Virus record (IMG/VR): IMGVR_UViG_3300046387_000741
Location: 1 to 32,370 of that record
Length of the DNA stretch: 32,370 nucleotides
Direction: 5' to 3' (one strand)
Source: a virus
Below, in pieces: positions 2,392 to 25,793 of the stretch (its first letter is position 1; the number at the start of each line of letters is the position of its first letter). The notes below the pieces were generated by a model. It was given only the letters and a program-made list of their open reading frames with translations. It did not search any database and was not told the origin of the DNA. Made by a program: the position numbers and the translations under genes.

Positions 2392-5253
2392 TTACCCTTG
2401 CCCTATAGTCTGAGTCGCCTGACGAGTATCAATGCCACTCACATCGTAAGTCTTGCCGACAACCTTAATTGGGTTAGCCGCAATTGTTATATCATCACTC
2501 ATATATCCAGCCAAAAAGTAATCTGGGTGAGCATAAGCACTATTAATGTCATATGTAGGATTGACCTTTAATTCGTCGCGTATGTATGGAGCTCTTACAT
2601 AAAGAGGTATCATGTTTTCATCACGAATTTGATTCAAAGTAACATGCTTAATTTCCCGGCCATTCTTTGTGGACATTGTCTCAACTTGCTCTGTTCCTTG
2701 AACTGCTGATGTAGTGGAAATTACAACATCTATGGGCGTGGTTCCATACTTGTTAGATAATTCAAGAACATATGACCTAAATTCTTTATCTGAAAAACTA
2801 TCTCCGAAATCAATAAGACCGCTCCTTAATTTACTTTGGTAGCCATATCCTAGTCTCGAATAAATTCTGTAGGGTTCAACCTCCCCAACTTCGGGCGGCC
2901 CGTAACCATAACGAACAACCACTCCATCCCTCATGTTGTCAGGTCTGTACTTAGTGCCAATATAGAAATTGCTATCTGAGGAATGTAATCCCATAAGAAA
3001 CCAGGATTGCTCTGGCCCCACTCTTTTCATCCTCGGCTTTCTTGCATAGCAAGCAGATGTAAAACTAGCGTCTATCTGAGACAATGTCCTGGTTATGTAA
3101 TCGTATGCAATGGTGCCCCAATCTATTATGGGTTTTTGTGTTACTGCACCGGTTTGGTCTATATATTCTCCGGCAGAGTTTTGCATGTACCCAACAGGTA
3201 CATTAAAAAACAATTCTCTAGTCACAGGATTATCTGCCGCATATACAAATTCTGCATACTCTGGGGGTATTTGTTTCCAAAAAGAAGGTCCCATCTCGAA
3301 GACAGAAACGGGCTCTGGTTCTGCTGAACTTCTTGATATTGAATAAACGCCGGAGCTACCAAGAAACACATGCCTTTTACCATCTAAGTTTGATATAGTG
3401 TGCCTATAATCGGCTACTCGCCCCCCAGTGTACTTTGGTTCCACCGCAAAAGGTTCCAGTGTGACATTTGAGCGAGATATGAAAAAGAAACCACTATCTC
3501 TATAAACTACTAATTTATCAGCTAATGGTACCATTTTTAAAATTCTCGTACCATCATCAGCAAACTCTCTAGCGGATGCCATATTGTACAGAGAGTTTAG
3601 GTATGTGCTAACTATTACCTCGTAAGTGCCAGGACTTAAATATCCTGTCGTCAGTCCCCATTTATCGGTATTGGTCGGTGGATTGTCCTCTCCTGCGTTC
3701 ACAGGTTCACTAGACTTATAGAATAATGAGCCAAATCGTACTGTTGTACCTACTGGGTACGCTTTAACAGACTCCCACTCCTCAAAAGCGTAAGTCAAGA
3801 ATCCCGGGTTATTGGAATCCCTATTGACCACTGTATAATTCCTGCCATGAGTCAGGTCTGGCTCAAACACATCTTTCCCTAAATGCAGCTTGTGCCAAAA
3901 CCATTGGCCACTGCTTGACTGTCTCCTATCCGAGCCGTATGTGCGCAATGGCAAAACACTATACTGTGTATAAGATATTTGCAGTTGATTATCAGTAAGA
4001 AATGAAATCGGGTTTGTCTCATCGCTTCCCAAGTAAACGGGAGCAGCGTTTAATACAGATACTTCCATACCACCTGTTTGGTCGCGCCAATCCCTCGGCA
4101 TCCATCCGAATCGACTGTTGTATCTATATTTTAATCCTTGCCTGGTGGTGCCAAACATCGTGTTGTTATCATAGGCATTCTTAAGCTTGTATTTATTCGA
4201 ACCCTTTTCCTCTAGAAAAAGCCTAGAGGTCAATCCATTGTTTTCTATGGCATACTTTTCATCTTCTGTTTTTATGCCAAATTCTGAGCTGCTTATTACA
4301 ACTGCCTCCTCGTCTAAAAACGATGCAGTATTTGCGATTAACGGTGTCCCCTCCTCTAAAGACCCAATTTTAAATTTTAAGTTCGAACCTAAGTTCACCG
4401 AGCCATCTGCACCGACTTCAAGTGTGGCGATAAGACCACCTGATTCAGATGTATCAAACAGCTTTGGGTTTTGCTCCATGCTGTAAAGCATTCTATACTG
4501 ATACCTTTGCAGCTTTACTGCCCCAGTAATAATCAAACTGTCATTGTATGGGTCGCCGTAAGGGTCATCTGCGTCTTGAAACCAACGCTCGTAACCACTA
4601 ATTATTGTGGTTAAGTCACCGACAAAAAGCCTATCTTGATATGATGCTATTGTCCCGCATGACACCACGCCTTGCTCTCTTAAGCTATACAGGGGTCGCG
4701 CATAATCCCATTCTGCCTTGTATATTATAGGCAAATCTACGCCGTTGCTTATTATTACATGGTTAAGAACTGTTACTGCTTCCCAGCGATATGCTCCTCC
4801 TTCAAATGGATTTCTGGTCGTTCCGTCTTCATCAAGGGCATCCATGTGACTGAGGCCTTCATATATCTTCTCCCACCAAAATGTCTCTCGGTCTCCGAAA
4901 TAATAACCTGGCTCTGCATAGTTCTCGTAAGTATCAAATGCGTATCCTACTGAGCCTGCCCTTAGCCGATAAATAGTCCCTCCAGCGGCAGCAATCAGAA
5001 TACCCTCTCCTGTTGTGGACGGGAACTGATAAAGCAACCGAATTGGGTACTCAGTATCTAAAGGAGTCTCCCTGCCCGTGGGGTCAAATAATTCCCATCC
5101 CTCTCGCCTCAATTCTCCGTCAGTCTCTCTTCTGAAGTTTATTTTCTCAGTATAATTAGATGAGCCTGCAATGTCATCAGACGCAGAACCAACTAACTGC
5201 CCACCTTGCTGTGGGGTTATAGTGACATGGCGATATCTTTTCTTCTTAGCCAT
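2392..5253 (-). CDS. Large tail protein, possibly nozzle/hub of a short tail
   Basis: A 953-residue protein, beta-rich throughout, with many repeated short strands bearing aromatic residues (for example VVYRDSGFFFISRS and RHVFLGSSGVYSISRS) as in beta-propeller tail-nozzle proteins of podoviruses (T7 gp12 and P22 gp10 type). The N-terminus is basic (MAKKKRYRHVTITPQQGG). There are no membrane segments or catalytic motif. The start overlaps the fibre-gene stop (TAATG). Placement after the putative adaptor and fibre genes fits a tail hub or nozzle. The name rests on size, composition and position. It could instead be a tail-needle or baseplate-like protein. Confidence 0.6.
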   Translation of the reverse strand: MAKKKRYRHVTITPQQGGQLVGSASDDIAGSSNYTEKINFRRETDGELRREGWELFDPTGRETPLDTEYPIRLLYQFPSTTGEGILIAAAGGTIYRLRAGSVGYAFDTYENYAEPGYYFGDRETFWWEKIYEGLSHMDALDEDGTTRNPFEGGAYRWEAVTVLNHVIISNGVDLPIIYKAEWDYARPLYSLREQGVVSCGTIASYQDRLFVGDLTTIISGYERWFQDADDPYGDPYNDSLIITGAVKLQRYQYRMLYSMEQNPKLFDTSESGGLIATLEVGADGSVNLGSNLKFKIGSLEEGTPLIANTASFLDEEAVVISSSEFGIKTEDEKYAIENNGLTSRLFLEEKGSNKYKLKNAYDNNTMFGTTRQGLKYRYNSRFGWMPRDWRDQTGGMEVSVLNAAPVYLGSDETNPISFLTDNQLQISYTQYSVLPLRTYGSDRRQSSSGQWFWHKLHLGKDVFEPDLTHGRNYTVVNRDSNNPGFLTYAFEEWESVKAYPVGTTVRFGSLFYKSSEPVNAGEDNPPTNTDKWGLTTGYLSPGTYEVIVSTYLNSLYNMASAREFADDGTRILKMVPLADKLVVYRDSGFFFISRSNVTLEPFAVEPKYTGGRVADYRHTISNLDGKRHVFLGSSGVYSISRSSAEPEPVSVFEMGPSFWKQIPPEYAEFVYAADNPVTRELFFNVPVGYMQNSAGEYIDQTGAVTQKPIIDWGTIAYDYITRTLSQIDASFTSACYARKPRMKRVGPEQSWFLMGLHSSDSNFYIGTKYRPDNMRDGVVVRYGYGPPEVGEVEPYRIYSRLGYGYQSKLRSGLIDFGDSFSDKEFRSYVLELSNKYGTTPIDVVISTTSAVQGTEQVETMSTKNGREIKHVTLNQIRDENMIPLYVRAPYIRDELKVNPTYDINSAYAHPDYFLAGYMSDDITIAANPIKVVGKTYDVSGIDTRQATQTIGQG

Positions 5254-7436
5254 TATGCCTCTGAGTATGCATCCCCATCAAGGGAAGTAAGGCTGCTTGT
5301 AAGGCTGGTGATTGAAGATTGAAGATTGGTTATGGTGGTTTCGAGTGCCTCTATCTTGGTGTCGTATGCACTTTGGTCCACCTTTAAGCCAATCGCAGTC
5401 GCCTGGGCAGTACTGACTGGTTTGTTTGCATCAGATGTATTATCGCAATCACCAAGTCCAACCTGTGCCTTAGTTACAGAGTGCGGGTTATCTGCATCAT
5501 TGATATGATTGGTGAGGTTAGTATTAGTCGTACCAATACTTGTGTTGGTATTTGTGCGTAGTGTATCTAACTCTTCATCAAATGCTATCGTCTTAACCGT
5601 GCCTGCACCATCTATCTTCCAAAGGTCGTCAGATTCGTCCCAATAAATCTTTGAGTTTGTTTGGCTTCCGCGCTCAACCTCAAGTCCTGCATTTGCACTT
5701 GGTGTGCCTGTTGCATTCTTATTAAGCTTAACGATATTATCCTCTACATCAAGCGTGGTCGTATTAAGTATTGTCTGTGTCCCTTGAATGGTAAGGTTGC
5801 CGACAACTTCAAGGTTTCCGCCAATCTTAGCACCCTGAGGGAGATTAAGTAGGGTGTTGTCAGTTGTGGATATGGTACTGCTACAAATACTAACATTACT
5901 AATCTGCCCGCATCCAGTTACATCAATTTCACCAGTAACATCTAGGTCGTCATTAACCTCTACCTTCGCTTGTTCCGACAAAAGAATCAGTTTGCCCAGT
6001 ACTGATTTTATCGTGTTATTCTCTATCTCAATGTCACCCAGAGTAGACTTACCTTCAATAGTTACATTTTTATTGATTGTTACATTTTCAGTAAAATTAC
6101 TATCGTAATCAAAATTAACATCCCCGTTTGATGCTTCCTGAAAAAGATTGAGCGCTCGCCAAGCAGACTCTGCAACTTTCAAGTACGCTTTATAGTTACC
6201 ATCACTATCTGCGCCCCATGTTAAATCACCAACACTACCGGCACCATCTGTTGGTGCAGTTGGAACAAAGGGATATCTAATAGAGTCCAGTCCTAGGGTG
6301 ACTCGCTCGTCAGACTCTGCCTTTGAGTAAACATCAAAGAAACTAAGGTCTATATCGTGCGGGTTGGTTGCAGAAGTATGGGCATCAAGCAATGCTTTCA
6401 CATCAATATCAGGCACATTACCTAGTCCCACTTGTGCTTTAGTAACCTCGTGCGGATTACTCTTGTTCCCCGTATGGGCAGAAAGGCTTCCTCCTGTGCT
6501 AGACAGTAGGGCATTAACATCTGACATAATGCCTGCTTGGTACGCAGTGGATTCATCAGATGAGAATATTTGGGATACTGTTTTGTTTTCTACGCTACCT
6601 AGACCTACTTGGTCTTTGGTTACAGAGTGTGGATTATTTGCAAGCCCGCTATGGTCAAGAATCTTGAGGTTTGTTTGCGCTTGGGTGTACTTGTCTAAAT
6701 CCGTGATGTCAGATTCGACATGGGTGTGTGCAGTATTAATCTGAGCAATCTTAGAATCTATCTCCGACCTATTGTAGTAAACTGTCCCAATGTCAGTAAT
6801 ATCAGCAACTAAGTGCTGGTGTGATGCATTAGCTAAGCCATCTAGGTCGGTTAGCTTTGCATACAAAGAAAGGTCGAAATCTCCAAGGTCAGTGATGTCT
6901 GCCATCACATGAGTATGTCCGGCTGATACCTTGGAATTGATTGCTGTAGTTAAGTCAGTCCTAGTGGCAGAAAGTTCAGCAGAGGTTGCTTTAGTATCTA
7001 GGGTAGTCTGTAAGCCAGTAACATCTGCAATCGCATGGGAATGACCGACATCAGTTTTATTAGCGATGCTTGTTTCCGCACTACCAACCCTTGTGGTAAG
7101 GGAATCAATCTGACCAGCGTAAGGCAGACCATCAATGGTTTGCCCCATATTGGTAAACTTAGAGTCTACTTCTGTTTTATTGTAGTAGTCCTGGGCAAAA
7201 TTATTCCCTGCATTCTCAAGTGTTACTACTCGTAAATCTACTGCATCAAGAGAGTCTTTTAGGTTCTTTGCTCCCGCGGAACTTAATACGGTGAGCGTAC
7301 TTTCGCTGGACAAGGAAGATGTGACATCGTCCACTACATTAATCGAGGAATCAATTAAATTCCCGAACTGCGCCTCAGTGGGCGTGGCACCAGATACAAA
7401 ATAAGTCTTTAAAGTAGTTTTTGATACATTGCTCAT
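5253..7436 (-). CDS. Repeat-built tail fibre
   Basis: A 727-residue tail fibre. The first 60 residues likely form the virion-attachment part. Residues about 130-240 hold four H-x-H units (GHSH, GHTH, ASHQH, AHTH), each followed by a D-[IV]-T/D motif like the metal-coordinating HxH repeats of trimeric fibres. Three copies of NPH-x-VTK-x-QVGLG, the phage fibre repeat, occur near residues 265, 330 and 660. Residues 440-620 form a beta-rich block (VVGNLTIQGTQTILNTTTL) shared with marine-phage structural proteins. The C-terminus is a short coiled coil. It is coupled by ATGA to the upstream gene and presumably contacts the host surface. Confidence 0.85.
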   Translation of the reverse strand: MSNVSKTTLKTYFVSGATPTEAQFGNLIDSSINVVDDVTSSLSSESTLTVLSSAGAKNLKDSLDAVDLRVVTLENAGNNFAQDYYNKTEVDSKFTNMGQTIDGLPYAGQIDSLTTRVGSAETSIANKTDVGHSHAIADVTGLQTTLDTKATSAELSATRTDLTTAINSKVSAGHTHVMADITDLGDFDLSLYAKLTDLDGLANASHQHLVADITDIGTVYYNRSEIDSKIAQINTAHTHVESDITDLDKYTQAQTNLKILDHSGLANNPHSVTKDQVGLGSVENKTVSQIFSSDESTAYQAGIMSDVNALLSSTGGSLSAHTGNKSNPHEVTKAQVGLGNVPDIDVKALLDAHTSATNPHDIDLSFFDVYSKAESDERVTLGLDSIRYPFVPTAPTDGAGSVGDLTWGADSDGNYKAYLKVAESAWRALNLFQEASNGDVNFDYDSNFTENVTINKNVTIEGKSTLGDIEIENNTIKSVLGKLILLSEQAKVEVNDDLDVTGEIDVTGCGQISNVSICSSTISTTDNTLLNLPQGAKIGGNLEVVGNLTIQGTQTILNTTTLDVEDNIVKLNKNATGTPSANAGLEVERGSQTNSKIYWDESDDLWKIDGAGTVKTIAFDEELDTLRTNTNTSIGTTNTNLTNHINDADNPHSVTKAQVGLGDCDNTSDANKPVSTAQATAIGLKVDQSAYDTKIEALETTITNLQSSITSLTSSLTSLDGDAYSEA
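5450..6645 (-). repeat. Three dispersed NPH-SVTK-QVGLG fibre repeats
   Basis: The units are encoded near 5451-5495, 6420-6463 and 6599-6641. All read NPH-[SE]-VTK-[DA]-QVGLG in the same frame, followed by x-V-x-N/D. The codons differ between copies, so protein sequence rather than DNA identity is conserved. They belong to the fibre gene and are not mobile. Confidence 0.8.
6715..7050 (-). repeat. Four HxH metal-site repeats in the fibre
   Basis: Four units of about 35 residues, each with H-x-H then three residues and D-[IV]-[TD]-[DG]-[LI]. They are encoded near 6717-6735, 6811-6830, 6903-6920 and 7031-7045. In trimeric fibres such histidine pairs can bind iron or zinc along the axis; here that is inferred from the motif alone. 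Confidence 0.7.
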
Positions 7437-23567: not shown

Positions 23568-24235
23568 TGGAACTAAAAACAACAAATATTAAAGGGAAAG
23601 AATATGTACAAGTTAATGAAAGGGTTCGAGCTTTTCGGACTCATCCTGATTTCGCAAATATGTCGATTGAAACGAGTATCGTCGACATATCTGAAAATCG
23701 TGTCGTCATGGTGGCTAAGGTTCTTGATTCGGAAGGTCTTATTCGCTCAACAGGTCATGCCGAAGAAACTCAGACGAATCACGGAGTTAATTCAACTTCC
23801 TTTATTGAGAATTGTGAAACGTCGGCTGTCGGCAGATGTCTCGGATTCCTCGGCATTGGAGTTGATTCGTCAATTGCAACAAGCGAAGAAGTCTCGCAAG
23901 CAATCGCACGACAGGACTCTAAAGGCAATTCGGGACCACTAAGAGACCTTTACAAAAAAGCATCCTCCGAGGTTGAGGCAGGCAATGTAGAAAAAGTAAA
24001 AGCCAATGTAGTGAATAAGGGGAGCGAAAACCTTCTTAATTGGAAAGAAGTCACCTGCCCTGTCGGTAAGCACAAGGGCAAACTAATGGGGGAGATTTTT
24101 AAGAATGACCCCGACTATTTGGCATGGATGGCAAAGAACATGGAGGCAAAGACTCCTGAGTTCAAGATGGCACTAGACGAGGCGGCGAAAGCACTTAACG
24201 GAAACGGCAAGCAAGGATTCAAGAAAGCGGGTTGA
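23567..24235 (+). CDS. Rad52-superfamily-like ssDNA annealing protein with ExoX-like C-terminus
   Basis: A 222-residue protein. Residues 10-110 include YVQVNERVRAF, RVVMVAKVLDSEGLIRSTGHAEE and ENCETSAVGRCLGFLGIG (81-98), a pattern I know from phage single-strand annealing proteins of the ERF/Rad52-like type. Residues 165-200 (PVGKHKGKLMGEIFKNDPDY then LAWM) match the small C-terminal domain found after exonuclease X-like nucleases. It should coat and anneal ssDNA in recombination with the nuclease encoded next. Shine-Dalgarno GGAGGGG is nine bases before the ATG. Confidence 0.7.
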   Translation: MELKTTNIKGKEYVQVNERVRAFRTHPDFANMSIETSIVDISENRVVMVAKVLDSEGLIRSTGHAEETQTNHGVNSTSFIENCETSAVGRCLGFLGIGVDSSIATSEEVSQAIARQDSKGNSGPLRDLYKKASSEVEAGNVEKVKANVVNKGSENLLNWKEVTCPVGKHKGKLMGEIFKNDPDYLAWMAKNMEAKTPEFKMALDEAAKALNGNGKQGFKKAG

Positions 24236-24918
24236 TGGACGAGCGTGATGGGAAAATGTCGGCTTCCAAAGTCGAAGCAGTTGTACTCTGTCCTGCCTAC
24301 CTTCAAGCGAATAAAAAGTTTGAATGGTTAGGCGACAGGTCGGCTGCCGATGAAGGGACTGCACGGCATCTTAATGAAGAAGAGCAAACTCCTATTGATG
24401 AAATCGGAGACGAGGACAGAAGGAAGTGTGCTATTCAATCTCGCAAGGCTTTGCAATGGTGTCGGGAAACACTTGAGATTGATGGAAAAATCGAAAGAGA
24501 GGCGCGGTTGTGGTGGGATGAGGATTGGTCAGGGCAATTAGACTACATGGAACTAGAAGGTAATCGTGCATTTATCGCCGATTACAAAATGCTTCGTGGA
24601 GACCATGAACCCGCAGACAAGAATGTTCAGTTGCAAGCCCAAGGAGCATTGGTGGTAAAGAACTACCCTGAAATAGAGGAAGTATTCTTAGCACTCATTG
24701 AGCCATTCAATGACCCGACATATACCACAGTCTGCTATTCCAAAGACTTTCTTTTAGCTAAGGGAGCTCTTTTTACTAACGCATCTAGATATGCACTAGA
24801 ACCAAACCCTCCGGCAGTCGCAGGAAAAAAGCAATGCAAGTGGTGCTCTGCACAACCTTTCTGCCCTGCCCTAAGGGAACTACTAACGATGGGATTAATG
24901 AAATATGAATTGGCTTGA
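24235..24918 (+). CDS. Cas4-like PD-(D/E)XK exonuclease with Fe-S cysteines (DUF2800 N-terminal part)
   Basis: A 227-residue protein. An EGTARH motif (near residue 44) precedes the PD-(D/E)XK core: SGQLDY (D near 103), then FIADYK (D116, K118), then QLQAQG. Cysteines at about 19 and in CKWCSAQPFC (201, 204, 210) are placed as for a 4Fe-4S cluster in Cas4/AddB-like nucleases. With the upstream annealing protein it makes an exonuclease plus annealase recombination pair. ATG 24235 overlaps the upstream TGA. The family's usual C-terminal region is missing here and appears as the next ORF. Confidence 0.75.
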   Translation: MDERDGKMSASKVEAVVLCPAYLQANKKFEWLGDRSAADEGTARHLNEEEQTPIDEIGDEDRRKCAIQSRKALQWCRETLEIDGKIEREARLWWDEDWSGQLDYMELEGNRAFIADYKMLRGDHEPADKNVQLQAQGALVVKNYPEIEEVFLALIEPFNDPTYTTVCYSKDFLLAKGALFTNASRYALEPNPPAVAGKKQCKWCSAQPFCPALRELLTMGLMKYELA

Positions 24919-25285
24919 AGAACCAAAAGACCTCGCTGAGGCAATGGAGATGGTTCCCTTAATGGAAGCATTTGTGAAGGCAGTCAAATCTGCCGTAAAA
25001 GATAAGCTTAATAATGATTTAGAGATTCCTGGTTTCAAGCTACGCAATAGTGGGAACATGACTTCCTACGAAGCCAAGAAAGTAGCGGAGCAACTAATGG
25101 ACTCTAATCTCATTAAGTGGGAAGACTTGTTGGAATCAATGAAGTTTTCGATTGAAGGACTTGTGCCCGTTTGGGCAGAGAAGACAGAGCAGTCAATTGC
25201 AGAGGCTCGCAAGGATTTGAAATCAAGATTGAGCGAGGTTGCCATAAGCAAGCCAAAGGCATCCTCAATAACTAGAATTAAGTGA
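24905..25285 (+). CDS. Separate C-terminal part of the DUF2800-type nuclease
   Basis: A 126-residue protein that overlaps the upstream ORF by 14 bases in another frame. Residues 20-60 (EAFVKAVKSAVKDKLNNDLE, then IPGFKLRNSGN) resemble the C-terminal region of DUF2800 proteins, which usually form one chain with the nuclease. The rest is helical (SYEAKKVAEQLMDSNLIKWE). It probably binds the nuclease in trans, or is fused to it by a +1 ribosomal frameshift at the overlap; no obvious slippery sequence is visible. A plain independent protein is also possible. Confidence 0.6.
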   Translation: MNWLEEPKDLAEAMEMVPLMEAFVKAVKSAVKDKLNNDLEIPGFKLRNSGNMTSYEAKKVAEQLMDSNLIKWEDLLESMKFSIEGLVPVWAEKTEQSIAEARKDLKSRLSEVAISKPKASSITRIK

Positions 25286-25617
25286 ATGCAACGAGGCGAG
25301 AAGATAACCCTGAGGGTAAAGAAGAAAACCCCTTCCTTGAACACCATGCTGAGATTAAATCGATGGGAATTGTTGGCGGAGAAATCGGACATGAATCGGG
25401 CGGTAATGCTCGCCATAGAGTCCGCGTTGTTAGCCGTAGGGTTAGGCTCTGTGACCCAGATAACCTCGTTGGGGGGGTCAAGCATCTCCTCGATGCGCTC
25501 AGGATTGCGGAAGTTATTCCTGAAGACAACCCTGAGGCAATCAGGCTCGAAGTCTCCCAAGAGAAAGTCCGTTCGTACTCGAAAGAAGAAACGTGGGTGG
25601 AGGTAACAGTATTATGA
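25286..25617 (+). CDS. rusA-like: RusA-like Holliday-junction resolvase, split by a frame change
   Basis: The N-terminal part is in the frame of ATG 25286 (ITLRVKKKTPSLNTMLRLN, the PSxN start of the RusA family). The C-terminal part is in the frame ending at 25617 (VRLCDPDNLVGGVKHLLDAL, the DPDN metal site, then the IPEDNPE acidic pair). A single -1 shift between about 25400 and 25430 would give a chain of about 110 residues, normal for the family (E. coli RusA is 120). Neither frame alone has the whole fold. The start sits in the upstream TGA context and the end overlaps the next gene as ATGA, so both ends look authentic. No slippery heptamer was seen. Confidence 0.6.
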
Positions 25618-25793
25618 ATGATTTATACAAAGATACGGGATTTATATTATTATGTTTATTGGTCGTGATGCTTTTTGCATGGGCACTCGGAGGATGTGCA
25701 AGCTCAATGAAATGTGGCAGTTGCCCGTCCGAAGGGCATGGTGCGTGCCCCTTTAACCCTACTAACTGCTGTAACGGACATAAGCATGATTGA
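25614..25793 (+). CDS. Small Cys-rich lipoprotein
   Basis: A 59-residue protein with a hydrophobic N-terminal segment (FILLCLLVVMLFAWAL) ending in a lipobox-like LGGC at about residues 25-28. The mature part has several Cys (KCGSCPSEGHGACPFN, then CCNGHKHD) and could bind metal or form disulphides. Shine-Dalgarno GGAGG lies ten bases before ATG 25614. Its place inside a replication operon is odd. Superinfection exclusion or envelope modification by an early lipoprotein is a guess. Confidence 0.55.
   Translation: MNDLYKDTGFILLCLLVVMLFAWALGGCASSMKCGSCPSEGHGACPFNPTNCCNGHKHD

Follow-up and report, generated by a model that had tools for sequence, protein, structure and literature searches.

Two overlapping reading frames of a viral locus appear to encode the two halves of a RusA-like resolvase

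RESULTS

Layout of the locus

We analyzed a 32,370-base IMG/VR virus record, and this whole stretch is referred to below as the window. Direct reading of the window placed a PSLN motif in one reading frame (frame 2) and a DPDN motif in another (frame 1) of the same DNA. The features of the locus are as follows.

24905 to 25285, plus strand: upstream gene, C-terminal part of a DUF2800/exonuclease-like protein (PHROG_69 exonuclease positions 347 to 419, E = 6e-7); its stop overlaps the start cluster
25282 to 25288, plus strand: start cluster by direct reading, in which the frame-1 GTG overlaps the upstream stop TGA and the frame-2 ATG comes next
25282 to 25617, plus strand: frame-1 gene, GTG start, 111 amino acids; an unconserved N-terminal tail and then the predicted catalytic half of a RusA-like fold
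25286 to 25606, plus strand: frame-2 gene, ATG start, 106 amino acids; a predicted RusA-like N-terminal half with PSLN and the alpha-1 helix, and then a basic, unconserved tail
25282 to 25404, plus strand: frame-1 tail, residues 1 to 41; unconserved in sequence, frame kept open, predicted to be disordered (pLDDT below 50)
25411 to 25428, plus strand: doubly constrained segment of 18 nt, encoding the end of alpha-1 (AIESAL) in frame 2 and the first strand of the catalytic half (RHRVRV) in frame 1
25436 to 25603, plus strand: frame-2 tail, residues 51 to 106; basic and kept open, with pLDDT blocks of 45 to 57 and one at 71
25453 to 25527, plus strand: putative catalytic residues in frame 1, D58 (25453), D60 (25459), K67 (25480), and D82 (25525)

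The upstream stop, TGA at 25283 to 25285, adjoins ATG 25286 and overlaps GTG 25282. Therefore, a terminating ribosome could restart in either frame.

Relatives with the same two-frame layout

Scanning viral contigs with the frame-1 product gave 62 loci. A second viral-contig scan, done with an alignment, gave 73 loci, mostly on the same contigs as the first, and a scan of genome contigs added one locus (L136). The aligned set was the window plus 66 loci, which made 67 sequences, 55 of them distinct. Left out of the counts were L057 and L125 (cut by contig ends), L062 (single frame), and L135. The last of these came from the L132 scan and was rejected as a relative, being an unrelated ORF that matched by chance. 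Repeat copies were also left out (L063 to L098, L100, L103 to L122, L130, L131, L133, L134, and L137), and L102 and L127, whose translations are identical to those of L101 and L126, were not counted. L061 and L132 differ in length and were inspected by eye, outside the counts. L136 was included in the tree-based tests and in the start-codon and slippery-site counts (56 sequences), and L050 was dropped from the start-codon count because its upstream sequence is missing.

PSLN was at frame-2 codon 16 and [CL]D.DNL was at frame-1 codon 56 in 67 of the 67 aligned sequences. By eye, L061, L132, and L136 also had the two-frame layout. L061 and L132 are distant relatives, with 45% identity for L061 and 43% in the frame-1 half for L132, and frame 2 of L132 stops earlier than it does in the window. 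Single-frame RusA-like proteins were found in L062 and in phage records MW202801 and MT837452. A tree of the split and single-frame RusA proteins gave no answer on whether the split arose once.

The L136 pair (4872 to 5210) is on a contig labeled as an uncultured archaeon metagenome-assembled genome (CALIKS010000067.1), which could reflect a provirus or a binning error. The single-frame RusA-like ORF of MW202801.1 (about 580 to 930) has no gene annotation in that record. In the large clade of L048 (positions 5508 to 6321), the pair comes after a different gene, DnaA-like by eye. Therefore, the pair kept its layout across different neighborhoods.

Each half is constrained in a different frame

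By codon-position entropy, the variable sites were the third positions of frame-2 codons as far as about 25408 and the third positions of frame-1 codons from 25429 onward. Between them, at 25411 to 25428, entropy was low at all three codon positions. On the tree, this 18-nt segment had 2.5, 1.2, and 2.5 changes per column at its three codon positions. Outside it, there were 6.7 wobble changes per column in the N half (frame 2) and 5.9 in the C half (frame 1).

The amino acids followed the same division. The invariant residues of frame 2 (P16, S17, L18, N19, W27, E32, and K33; 27 sequences) all lie within its first 33 positions. All those of frame 1, including D58, D60, K67, and D82, are from residue 51 onward (28 sequences). 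Both tails have little amino acid conservation. Frame 2 has nine more positions that hardly vary. Five of these fall in its tail, where a few nearly invariant serines and leucines stand out from otherwise little conservation. These serines and leucines may be by-products of frame 1.

A preliminary description of this DNA had noted PSLN and DPDN in different frames, and the identical spacing in every aligned sequence bears that out. It had put the switch at 25400 to 25430, which is the right place, with the variable positions changing frame between 25408 and 25429. Its remark that there is no homopolymer at the switch also agrees with direct reading, by which 25380 to 25440 has none. A run of seven G residues occurs in frame 1 at 25471 to 25477, which is 3' of the switch and beyond the doubly constrained segment.

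Both frames are kept open

Frame 1 was open through the N half in 55 of the 55 distinct sequences. Under synonymous recoding of frame 2, the expected openness was 26% with pooled codons and 36% when each sequence's own codons were shuffled. Frame 2 was open through the C half, again in 55/55. The expectation there was 12% with pooled codons and 64% with own codons shuffled, the latter being a weak null because so few alternatives remain. T-ended frame-2 codons that create a frame-1 stop numbered 0/238, versus 233/895 in other contexts.

We also counted changes as events on the tree. Synonymous frame-2 changes created a frame-1 stop in 0/38 events, versus 34/128 T-changes in control contexts (P = 6e-5). 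The counts were 0/23 versus 26/92 (P = 0.002) upstream of a possible internal NTG start and 0/15 versus 8/36 (P = 0.09) in the shorter part after it. For frame-2 stops in the C half, they were 0/41 versus 12/25 (P = 1e-6), and a single isoleucine column supplied much of the control signal.

Ordinary genes served as a control. For 87 ordinary ORFs of the same loci there was no stop avoidance (43.7% versus 43.5%). Among 1212 stretches from such ORFs, 120 nt were open in the −1 frame in 2.3% and 165 nt were open in the +1 frame in 5.2%. Stop avoidance is strong in both frames of the pair and absent from ordinary genes of the same phages. By the stop tests and the ordinary-gene control, both frames are kept open by selection, as expected of an overlapping gene pair.

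Frame 1 also has starts of its own. Every sequence with enough upstream DNA (55/55) had an ATG or GTG for frame 1 between −15 and +30 nt from the reference point. Its offset varied by clade (−12, −9, −6, −3, 0, +18, or +30), and no frame-1 stop followed. In the distant relatives, a frame-1 ATG is 22 nt (L061) or 34 nt (L132) upstream of the frame-2 ATG. We rejected an internal NTG at 25363, opposite the invariant tryptophan, as the sole frame-1 start, since the stop avoidance in frame 1 extends upstream of that NTG too.

Similarity to RusA

The frame-1 product had a weak match to PHROG RusA-like families (E = 2e-4 on phrog_1682), and the frame-2 product alone had no profile match. We also made an overlap join, in which the 18 nt are used in both frames, and for the window it matched phrog_1682 with an E value of 1e-6. 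The overlap join of the window scored 29.2 bits on phrog_1682, compared with 25.4 when one shuffled frame-2 half was used and 22.2 for a direct −1 fusion. The corresponding scores for L132 were 33.7, 32.0, and 33.2. One shuffled frame-2 half costs 1.7 to 4.1 bits on this profile. The fusion scored higher for L061 on phrog_34 (22.3 versus 21.1), one of ten comparisons. Adding the frame-2 half improves the profile score by a modest amount. Even so, overlap joins aligned with phrog_1682 from the PSLN half onward in 5/5 cases, whereas direct −1 fusions lost the PSLN half in 5/5, aligning from residue 33 or later.

Alignment of the joined protein to the Pfam RusA family (PF05866), proposed in the preliminary description as a check, gave no match. 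At E values up to 1, PF05866 matched neither product, none of the joins, and nothing else in the 32-kb record. Nonetheless, the name RusA-like that the description had used holds, through the PHROG profile match and the conserved catalytic aspartates and lysine. We take D58, D60, K67, and D82 of frame 1 to be the equivalents of E. coli RusA D70, D72, K76, and D91, which fits the structural alignment described below. A search of phage records with the frame-1 product returned only one weak match, and PDB sequence searches found no RusA.

An AlphaFold2 model of the frame-1 product had pLDDT below 50 for residues 1 to 41, followed by a strand (45 to 53), helices (59 to 75), and two strands (87 to 95 and 103 to 110). 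The frame-2 model had a helix at residues 26 to 50 (pLDDT about 78 to 92) and low confidence after it. The modeled frame-2 helix ends at 25435 and the modeled frame-1 strand begins at 25414, so the same DNA would serve both. Residues 42 to 111 of the frame-1 model superimposed on residues 52 to 117 of E. coli RusA (1q8r_B) over 63 residues at 2.7 Å, with a low Z score of 4.8 (tubulin and MIF chains reached 4.0 to 4.5). E. coli RusA was the best of 939 chains by Z, and RusA-named viral models were among the fold matches. A Foldseek search of the PDB with the frame-1 model gave no match at an E value of 0.001, with RusA at rank 38. The frame-2 model alone had no significant fold match among viral models. 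Because frame-1 residues 42 to 111 cover RusA 52 to 117, the missing part is only RusA 1 to 51. This part, absent from frame 1, is the one that frame 2 resembles.

DISCUSSION

A proposed two-chain resolvase from two overlapping genes

We think it likely that the locus, in a family of environmental phages, holds two fully overlapping genes and that each makes one half of a RusA-like resolvase, which would assemble from two chains if both frames are translated and the assembled enzyme is active, as we suppose. Slightly less firmly, we also favor a broader statement. One domain would have been divided between two same-strand genes that overlap fully, each carrying one half and, across the half of the other gene, a dispensable tail. 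A short segment would code for both. The resolvase would be the assembly of their products, and the layout would be conserved across diverse phages.

In the proposed scheme, a ribosome ending the upstream gene probably restarts at GTG 25282 or ATG 25286, both of which are putative starts. The frame-2 gene (25286 to 25606) would give the N-terminal half (beta-1, PSLN, and helix alpha-1) with a basic unstructured tail. The frame-1 gene (25282 to 25617) would give an unstructured tail and the catalytic half (D-x-D-N-L ... K ... D). The segment at 25411 to 25428 would be used twice, completing alpha-1 in frame 2 and forming the next strand in frame 1. The two chains would then combine into one unit with presumed resolvase activity. 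This two-gene reading offers no reason for frame 2 being open past 25435.

The preliminary description was right about the RusA-like name, the use of two frames, and where the switch lies. Its suggestions of a single gene carrying a −1 change and of unusual frameshifting are less likely than two complete overlapping genes, because both frames are open over their full length, a separate start exists for frame 1, and the switch segment is constrained in both frames. In its conserved form, the frameshifting interpretation is a single gene in which some unusual signal near 25411 directs a programmed −1 shift out of frame 2 into frame 1, making one fused RusA. This would account for the tight frame-2 start, the right C-terminus in frame 1, and the unusual conservation of the 18 nt at the switch. 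However, no X_XXY_YYZ heptamer is conserved near the switch (25406 to 25430) in the 56 sequences. The commonest one, AAAGGGA (30/56), is at 25291, and few sequences have any codon at the switch able to re-pair at −1. Downstream RNA in four relatives had no clear extra folding compared with shuffles (z = −0.45, 0.47, −1.51, and 0.14, for folds without pseudoknots). A direct −1 fusion would have 44 residues from PSLN to DPDN, about 14 short of the 58 in single-frame L062 and the 59 in MW202801. Furthermore, a programmed −1 shift needs neither frame-1 openness and starts upstream nor frame-2 openness downstream, and the constraint from both frames overlaps for 18 nt. We consider such a frameshift unlikely. 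A translational bypass, or long backward hop, in which one chain includes both readings of the 18 nt, would yield a product of the right length, but it also has no need for a frame-1 start or for open frames outside the switch. We know of no backward hop of this kind, and it is very improbable here.

The frame-1 protein alone might instead be the working enzyme, a shortened RusA, with the frame-2 protein, a descendant of the old N-terminus, acting separately as its partner or as a regulator. Every catalytic residue is in frame 1, which has its own start. However, the RusA-type N-terminus (PSLN and helix) is strongly constrained in frame 2 throughout the 67 aligned sequences as well as in L061 and L132. 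The simplest account of this constraint is that the N-terminus completes the fold. This alternative seems doubtful. The preliminary description had also raised a sequencing or assembly error or a recent mutation. Nothing beyond the first sight of two frames favors such an event in one contig, and the same spacing occurs in 66 other loci and in the distant relatives. It has next to no probability, and the conservation of the same arrangement in many separately assembled contigs rules it out.

Relation to known systems

In most overlapping genes, an old protein is paired with a new one to which it is unrelated, and the parts of a split gene are usually arranged end to end. In this locus, a single domain seems to be shared between two frames of one piece of DNA, and this state seems to have been kept. 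If this is true, a frameshift that breaks a gene can become fixed as an enzyme of two chains with no recoding signal, and the pair would be a natural split nuclease. Some "frameshifted" phage genes that have been called errors or recoding would then be overlapping gene pairs missed by annotation.

The pair resembles known RusA-like resolvases (E. coli RusA, PDB 1q8r; PHROG_1682 and PHROG_34) in the catalytic D-x-D-N-L ... K ... D and probably in the C-terminal fold, both in frame 1, and in PSLN and the predicted helix, in frame 2. It lacks the family feature of a single polypeptide in one reading frame, since its motifs are in different frames in 67/67 sequences. Known members are single chains in one frame, whereas the halves here are in different frames with their own starts. 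We regard the pair as RusA-like by profile and residues, although it falls below the Pfam cut-off and lacks the single-chain feature, and junction cutting is putative.

Other systems share parts of this arrangement. The embedded Rz/Rz1 spanin genes also make two proteins of one complex from different frames of the same DNA (PMC6139136). However, those subunits are distinct proteins, whereas here they would be halves of one ancestral domain, with both genes over nearly the same 330 nt. Split phage enzymes such as NrdA of phage Aeh1 and gene 43A/43B likewise have one ancestral enzyme as two reassembling polypeptides (PMC2988022), but their halves are separate genes parted by an insertion rather than overlapping in different frames. 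Ambiguous initiation in E. coli shows that adjacent starts in different frames can both be used (PMC9841429). Those starts resemble the start cluster here, but no enzyme built from both products was seen in the part of that article covered. GeneTack catalogs conserved frame transitions inside gene families, as found here, and sorts them into programmed frameshift, translational coupling, phase variation, pseudogene, and overlapping homologous genes (PMC3711429). Neither RusA nor a resolvase is named in the portion of its text covered. In the literature covered, which included parts of PMC3711429 and PMC5009743 and in which subscription journals are thinly represented, we found no report of RusA or of one domain divided over two frames.

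Neighboring genes

The DUF2800/exonuclease-like protein upstream of the pair (24232 to 25285) is split into two consecutive ORFs in the window, matching PHROG_69 positions 82 to 328 and 347 to 419. It is also in two ORFs in L006, L026, L044, L055, and L136, and it is one ORF of 366 to 373 amino acids in L123 and L124. Downstream, a small ORF at 25593 to 25793 encodes a hydrophobic stretch and many cysteines and has a lipoprotein-like look.
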